Assembly: GCA_027923505.1 (NCBI GenBank)
Contig: BROI01000002.1
Location: 1,488,001 to 1,552,000 of the forward strand
Source of the DNA: Mayamaea pseudoterrestris
Taxonomy: Eukaryota > Bacillariophyta > Bacillariophyceae > Sellaphorales > Sellaphoraceae
Reading direction: 5' to 3'
Length of the DNA: 64,000 bases
The notes under the pieces were generated by a model. It saw only the letters and a program-made list of their open reading frames with translations, ran no database searches and had not been told where the DNA came from. Within the stretch, counting starts at the first letter, position 1, and every line of letters starts with the position of its first letter. A program made the translations under genes and the position numbers. Below, piece by piece: positions 1,861-2,128 of this stretch.

Positions 1861-1978
1861 GTTTAACCGGATGTGAAAGAGAACAACAATCGTAGCTTTC
1901 TACAACGACAAAAGCCTGCCTTTTGGACTGGACGCTGCGACGATCTTGTGACGATTTTGCTTTGATCGTCGAACGGTT

Positions 1979-1984
1979 TATATA
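1979..1984 (+). promoter_or_regulatory. TATA-like element upstream of the permuted tRNA
   Basis: TATATA about 32 nt upstream of the first tRNA base at 2016. Upstream TATA-like boxes are common at plant and algal Pol III genes, and the internal A and B boxes of this tRNA are in reversed order, so an external element could matter. Assignment is inference from position. Confidence 0.35.
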
Positions 1985-2015
1985 GATTCTGAGAACCTTT
2001 TCAGCACGGTAATTT

Positions 2016-2096
2016 TCGAATGGTCGGGTGTTCGACTCACCCCTGGTGCTTCTTCCGATGCACTAGTAGCTCAGTGGCAGAGCGTTCGATTGCAGT
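2016..2096 (+). tRNA. Permuted tRNA-Cys (anticodon GCA), 3' half before 5' half
   Basis: Read in genomic order, the 3' half comes first: anticodon-stem strand TCGAA (2016-2020), variable loop TGGTC (2021-2025), T-stem GGGTG (2026-2030), T-loop TTCGACT (2031-2037), T-stem CACCC (2038-2042), acceptor strand CTGGTGC (2043-2049) and discriminator T (2050). A 9-nt linker (2051-2059) follows. Then comes the 5' half: acceptor strand GCACTAG (2060-2066), TA, D-stem GCTC (2069-2072), D-loop AGTGGCA, D-stem GAGC (2080-2083), G, anticodon stem TTCGA (2085-2089) and loop TTGCAG(T) with anticodon GCA at 2092-2094. Joining the halves between positions 37 and 38 gives a 72-nt cloverleaf with all stems paired: acceptor 7 bp with one G-U, D 4 bp, anticodon 5 bp, T 5 bp. 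U73 is the Cys identity base in eukaryotes. CCA is not encoded. Permuted tRNAs are known from red and green algae and nucleomorphs; maturation would need the tRNA splicing endonuclease plus RNase P and tRNase Z. Confidence 0.92.
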
Positions 2097-2122
2097 CCAC
2101 TTTTGCATATGCTTAATAACTC

Positions 2123-2128
2123 TTTTTT
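2123..2128 (+). terminator. Pol III T-tract terminator for the permuted tRNA
   Basis: A run of six T about 27 nt after the end of the tRNA 5' half. A TTTT also occurs at 2101-2104. Either would stop RNA polymerase III after the permuted precursor. Confidence 0.6.

Follow-up and report, generated by a model that had tools for sequence, protein, structure and literature searches.

Does the nuclear genome of a diatom carry a working permuted tRNA gene? The question is raised by a locus in Mayamaea pseudoterrestris, a freshwater diatom of the Sellaphorales (Stramenopiles). A first-pass annotation of the DNA had read this locus as a permuted tRNA-Cys(GCA) gene in a stramenopile, and its reading of the host was correct. 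In permuted tRNA genes, the 3' half of the tRNA precedes the 5' half. A table in PMC3978253 comprises 34 such genes, whose carriers are red algae, green algae, a single nucleomorph and a single archaeon. We analysed a 64-kb stretch of DNA, referred to here as the window, on contig C2 of a 30.6-Mb assembly in 41 contigs; the locus sits inside this 2.78-Mb contig. The window also encodes an RRP12-like protein.

On the + strand of the window, the locus comprises a 3' half, a 9-nt linker and a 5' half, in that order (Table 1), which bears out the arrangement proposed by the first-pass annotation. The 3' half contains the anticodon 3' strand, the variable loop, the T arm, the acceptor 3' strand and U73. 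The 5' half contains the acceptor 5' strand, the D arm, the anticodon 5' strand and the GCA anticodon. Joined at 37/38, the halves yield a 72-nt tRNA-Cys(GCA) with U73, a combination of discriminator and anticodon that we take to be the mark of cysteine. As had been claimed, all four stems pair: the cloverleaf has standard pairs at 21 of 21 positions, including one G-U. The conserved bases U8, A14, G15 with C48, G18, G19, U33, U54 U55 C56, A58 and U73 are likewise in place. CCA is not encoded, as TCTTCCGAT directly follows U73. The span originally annotated, 2016-2096, describes the same RNA but is cut one nucleotide late: there is a T at both joints, and the 37/38 cut, which gives 2015-2095, fits the splice-site helix.

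Table 1. Features of the permuted tRNA-Cys locus, in window coordinates
Feature	Position	Strand	Basis
TATA-like element TTTATATAG	1977..1985	+	TATA at −36 and −34 relative to the 3' half
Leader strand of the central helix (H), relaxed bulge-helix-bulge	2009..2012	+	pairs with tRNA positions 35-32 (2093-2090)
3-nt bulge with predicted 3' cleavage site, 2014/2015	2013..2015	+	adjoins the H helix
3' half of tRNA-Cys, positions 38-73	2015..2050	+	R1, ARAGORN on tandem copy, pairing check
Linker of 9 nt between the acceptor ends, without a T-run	2051..2059	+	sequence
5' half of tRNA-Cys, positions 1-37	2060..2095	+	R1, ARAGORN on tandem copy, pairing check
Start of trailer; predicted 5' cleavage site, 2095/2096	2096..2100	+	predicted by the helix register
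TTTTGC, likely Pol III terminator	2101..2106	+	match to ordinary tRNA terminators
T6, possible back-up terminator	2122..2127	+	BHB helix predicted to be weaker in transcripts with this end

According to ARAGORN, a tandem copy of 2015-2095 contains a tRNA-Cys(gca) of 72 bases with U73, in agreement with the identity first assigned. The same program detected no tRNA in 300 bases around the locus in native order, and ARAGORN and Rfam (gathering threshold) detected none in the 64-kb window as it stands. An ordinary scanner such as ARAGORN calls no tRNA-Cys here because the gene is permuted. The permutation also reverses the order of the A and B boxes, which counts against a working gene.

As the first-pass annotation had suggested, we scored the locus with a covariance model that takes permutation into account. 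This model, R1, was trained on in silico permutations of 20 ordinary tRNAs from the diatom; the permuted locus itself was not included. Each training tRNA was cut at 37/38 and rejoined in reverse order with a random 10-base linker. The training set derives from 27 tRNAs chosen from the 47 named by ARAGORN, seven with shorter variable loops having been dropped for the alignment. At E values up to 10, R1 returned a single match in the 64-kb window: 2015-2095, with 69.0 bits and an E value of 1.7e-21. R1 was also run on 21 genome loci, comprising the permuted locus (L059), ten loci with ordinary tRNAs (that of L067 being identified by reading) and others. The permuted locus scored 69.0 bits and all other matches scored 25.5 bits or less.

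A high score with R1 might also be expected of a dead relic, in which a tandem-duplicated, intron-bearing tRNA-Cys gene lost its outer halves, leaving inner halves that are neither transcribed nor processed into tRNA. One published origin model has a tandem duplication and then the loss of outer exons (PMC3978253, accessible part), and the apparent inner halves of adjoining tRNAs do mimic the permuted fold. When viral contigs were searched for a B-box-to-A-box order, at least 120 stretches were returned, and in the 80 of these that were scored (L080-L159), R1 reported 303 matches at E values up to 1e-4, with a maximum of 59.2 bits. Based on three inspected alignments, these matches are taken to be tandem tRNA arrays that mimic the permuted order. 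Because such presumed arrays reach 59.2 bits, R1 alone does not discriminate between a permuted gene and two inner halves of adjacent tRNAs. Against a relic, the stems of the diatom tRNA are without mismatch. Moreover, no remnants of outer halves were detected in the ∼115 nt on either side (1900-2014 and 2096-2210), where 97% and 96% of 300 shuffles, respectively, scored as high as the native flanks; the flanks were rejected as relics of outer tRNA halves on these grounds.

Promoter- and terminator-like signals at the locus also argue against a relic. The first-pass annotation had placed a TATA-like box about 32 nt upstream; the box exists, with TATA at −36 and −34. For comparison, we counted such signals in 44 ordinary tRNA loci (L013-L056), which correspond to the 46 fetched from the genome minus two suspected dead copies, L057 and L058. 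TATA occurs at −40 to −25 in 13 of the 44, versus one of 44 at −80 to −65, and is absent from −40 to −25 in the other 31. Downstream, a T4+ run occurs within 20 nt in 44/44 of these loci; the next base is G in 36 of them, and GC comes next in 20. By comparison, 2.7% of 20-base segments of the window contain T4+G. At the permuted locus, TTTTGC begins at the sixth base past the 5' half, with its T4 at 2101-2104. As this element matches the tRNA terminators of the genome, transcription probably ends at the T4 of TTTTGC, the nearer run, and not at the T6 at 2122-2127, which had been correctly located but put forward as the terminator. No T4 run occurs between 2015 and 2095, that is, in the halves and linker.

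The two loci set aside from these counts have no T4 run in the 100 nt downstream and no TATA upstream. L057 and L055 are two copies of an intron-bearing elongator tRNA-Met gene, ∼4 kb apart (G000:C11); to judge from its downstream sequence, which is free of T4 within 100 nt, L057 may be a dead copy. L058 (G000:C22:145217-145288), a tRNA-Val(UAC) copy whose 3' end is broken, lies ∼3 kb away from L025, the intact gene.

Excision of the precursor at 37/38 would call for a bulge-helix-bulge (BHB) at the splice site. In the expected BHB register, position 32 pairs with leader base −3, and so on to position 35 with −6. In the permuted gene, all four pairs of the central helix, H, form in this canonical register: U32-A2012, U33-A2011, G34-U2010 and C35-G2009. 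Such 4/4 pairing was obtained with 2.2% of 20,000 shuffled leaders. The same helix is part of the MFE structure of 2004-2104, in which bases 2095 and 2096 are weakly paired and no 3-nt bulge is present at the 5' cut. The outer helix, h', is poor, with three of six pairs, scattered. With nine transcript starts from 1998 to 2008, the pairing probability of H was 31-82% for transcripts ending at 2102-2104 and 3-22% for those ending at 2110, 2120 or 2127. In the same register, the introns of tRNA-Tyr (L049) and eMet (L055) form three of four H pairs. A BHB-like motif, at least of the hBH type, is thereby present at 37/38 in the permuted gene, consisting of the anticodon stem, the 4-bp central helix and, at the 3' site, a bulge of 3 nt. 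The folding models indicate that a bulge-helix-bulge of relaxed type exists at this gene, in a register that speaks against a dead relic. The first-pass annotation had reported no strong BHB, which is true of the outer helix but overlooked the central helix and bulge.

Folds were also computed for the mature tRNA and its predicted precursor, the 81-nt circle. In the MFE structures of both, the acceptor, T and anticodon stems are kept and the D stem is lost, the D arm forming a different 3-bp hairpin. For the mature tRNA, the cloverleaf lies 4.5 kcal/mol above the MFE (−25.2 vs −29.7). Energy folding models leave out tertiary contacts and base modifications; we therefore gave the misfolded D arm little weight.

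The first-pass annotation had held that several normal tRNA-Cys genes elsewhere, together with a lack of reads across the 37/38 joint, would mark this one as a dead copy. We searched the genome for such genes by BLAST and with three patterns and, after the matches were checked, found none. BLAST of the mature tRNA-Cys against the 30.6-Mb assembly matched these two halves only. A Cys-type D-arm-to-anticodon pattern with a 7-nt D loop, required exactly, had its sole match in the genome in the 5' half of the permuted gene. With up to three mismatches allowed, this pattern gave 25 matches, versus 42 for a reversed-pattern control: one in the permuted gene, three at ordinary tRNAs (Arg once and Val twice, one Val being truncated) and 21 elsewhere. 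The corresponding pattern with an 8-nt D loop gave 61 matches, versus 81 for the control; of the 61, 11 fell at ordinary tRNAs (Tyr, Phe, Asn, Ala, Lys, Met) and 50 elsewhere. ARAGORN, with introns of up to 200 allowed, detected no tRNA in any of the 71 remaining loci (L060-L066 and L219-L282), and R1, applied to 64 of them (L219-L282), gave no score higher than 9.0 bits. Finally, an anticodon-to-T-loop pattern gave 19 matches, versus 17 for its control, among which ARAGORN and Rfam find one tRNA, Phe. The most tRNA-like of these matches, L207, was rejected: by eye it resembles reverse-transcriptase coding sequence, and neither ARAGORN nor Rfam reports a tRNA there.

A survey of the ordinary tRNAs was made from the RF00005 genome list, for which 63 of 802 candidates were scored; 48 places in this list were fetched as 46 loci. 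ARAGORN names 47 tRNAs in these loci, none of them Cys. Two ordinary tRNA-Gly(GCC) genes, L075 (G000:C4:795682-795707) and L076 (G000:C16:311451-311476), are missing from the RF00005 list, which is therefore incomplete. A tolerant Trp(CCA) pattern of the same kind as those used for Cys, run over the whole assembly, returned Arg genes only and no tRNA-Trp. The genome must nevertheless contain a tRNA-Trp. Since the method missed it, an unusual tRNA-Cys gene could escape too, and absence is not proof. Nor do the 47 tRNAs named from the incomplete list include Arg(ACG), Ile(UAU) or Leu(CAA); for these and for Trp, the genes may have diverged, contain introns, be permuted or simply have gone unscored. 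A joined DNA query of four plant-type tRNAs returned nothing, missed ordinary tRNAs as well, and is silent on absence. Overall, as no ordinary tRNA-Cys was found after every pattern match had been checked, the permuted gene is probably the only nuclear tRNA-Cys gene, to the extent that this can be judged from the assembly. The failure to detect a second tRNA-Cys gene is a further point against a dead relic, which we consider improbable.

A working permuted gene would depend on enzymes that cut and ligate RNA. L011 encodes a tRNA-splicing-endonuclease domain that scores above the Pfam cut-off. Compared to solved tRNA-splicing endonucleases, its best E value is 1.3e-5, and those for Sen2-named chains, 0.14-0.15, are not significant. 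A second endonuclease candidate, L012, is weak: it falls under the Pfam cut-off and its best PDB match (E 0.098) is not significant. An RtcB ligase is clear (E 1.9e-132). The RtcB gene (G000:C2:1417853-1419261, two matching pieces) is on the same contig as the permuted gene, ∼71 kb away. A search for a Trl1-type ligase with PF09511 was empty, but its controls were empty as well. Introns read by eye at 37/38 in tRNA-Tyr (L049) and eMet (L055) imply a working splicing pathway. L049 is labelled an intron-bearing tRNA-Phe by ARAGORN, but its sequence reads as tRNA-Tyr(GUA), interrupted at 37/38 by an intron of ∼28 nt.

Together, the blind R1 score, the 21/21 pairs, the H helix, the TATA and terminator elements, the lack of another detected tRNA-Cys and the candidate enzymes argue for a working permuted gene. 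The locus presents a 3' half that lies 5' of the 5' half on the same strand, a cloverleaf, a short linker without promoter or terminator, an upstream TATA and a downstream T stretch. Judged by these sequence features, it is a circularly permuted tRNA gene of type II and is very probably functional. It is highly likely, in our assessment, that it represents a working permuted tRNA-Cys(GCA) gene of type II, joined at 37/38, in a diatom nuclear genome, and probably the only cytosolic tRNA-Cys gene.

In the published pathway for permuted tRNAs, the transcript is cut at the BHB and ligated into a circle, RNase P and tRNase Z remove the linker, and CCA is added (PMC3978253, accessible part). In the diatom, Pol III would start at the upstream TATA-like element and stop at TTTTGC just past the 5' half, generating a transcript with the order leader, 3' half, linker, 5' half and trailer. 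This RNA would fold as a cloverleaf open at the anticodon loop, the leader and anticodon loop forming the relaxed BHB. The tRNA-splicing endonuclease would cut at 2014/2015 and 2095/2096, and a ligase, for which RtcB is the candidate, would join position 37 to 38 to give the 81-nt circle. RNase P and tRNase Z would then remove the 9-nt linker, CCA would be added, and the mature tRNA would decode UGU and UGC. We infer each of these processing steps, including the circular intermediate, from the arrangement of the locus and the published pathway.

Two further explanations fare less well than a dead relic. It is very improbable that an assembly error scrambled an ordinary tRNA-Cys locus: the locus lies inside a 2.78-Mb contig, BLAST reveals no second copy that could have caused a misjoin, and the leader and trailer carry fitting signals of their own. 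Least likely of all is a split tRNA, whose halves, both physically complete here, would be transcribed separately and joined in trans, as just 9 nt lie between them, with no T4 run and no space for a promoter, and the leader and trailer fit a single precursor.

If the locus is the sole tRNA-Cys gene, cysteine decoding in the sequenced diatom depends on RNA circularisation. A more tentative suggestion, which we regard as rather doubtful, is that the permuted gene supplies all cytosolic tRNA-Cys and that some of the isoacceptors missing from the searches, namely Trp, Arg(ACG), Ile(UAU) and Leu(CAA), may have permuted or otherwise scrambled genes too. In that case, permuted tRNAs would have originated, or been acquired, once more in the stramenopile line. 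The first-pass annotation knew of no well-described diatom case, and no earlier stramenopile or diatom case appeared in the literature searched, a set that did not extend to the genome paper (Suzuki et al. 2022) or Maruyama et al. 2010. The words diatom and stramenopile are absent from PMC3978253 and from the accessible part of PMC4033280; the accessible parts of PMC4090602, PMC8450103, PMC12159174, PMC13353863 and PMC4929541 contain no diatom permuted tRNA. The locus thus appears to extend permuted tRNA genes to the nucleus of a stramenopile host, with no earlier report found in the literature searched.

The diatom gene shares features with several known systems, described here from the accessible parts of the sources cited. 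The intervening sequence of known permuted tRNA genes is 1-74 bp (PMC3978253). In Cyanidioschyzon merolae (Soma et al. 2007, via PMC3978253), as in the diatom, a TATA-like element lies within 50 bp upstream and a T stretch downstream, the linker is short and CCA is not encoded. By contrast, C. merolae has 11 permuted genes with junctions at 20/21, 37/38, 50/51 and 59/60 (PMC3978253), whereas one was found in the diatom, at 37/38. The permuted tRNA-Ser of the Bigelowiella natans nucleomorph has a type II junction like that of the diatom, with 5-bp linkers (PMC3978253), and permuted tRNA-Ser genes also occur in the nucleomorph of Amorphochlora amoebiformis (PMC4494063). Chlorarachniophyte nucleomorphs are relict green-algal nuclei, whereas the diatom gene resides in the diatom's own genome, on a 2.78-Mb contig. 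In the green alga Auxenochlorella, permuted tRNAs were found after an ordinary scan had given an incomplete set (PMC12633428).

The prasinophyte green algae Ostreococcus lucimarinus, O. tauri and Micromonas pusilla possess permuted tRNA-Cys(GCA) genes of type II (Maruyama et al. 2010, tabulated in PMC3978253, accessible part). The diatom gene shares with these three the isoacceptor, the 37/38 junction and the lack of an extra intron, and green-algal permuted junctions are of the hBH type (PMC3978253, accessible part). The linkers differ, at 9 bp in the diatom versus 26, 38 and 12 bp in the three prasinophytes (same source), as do the hosts, a stramenopile versus prasinophytes. The occurrence of the same isoacceptor with the same joint in prasinophytes makes independent origin versus gene transfer a testable question.
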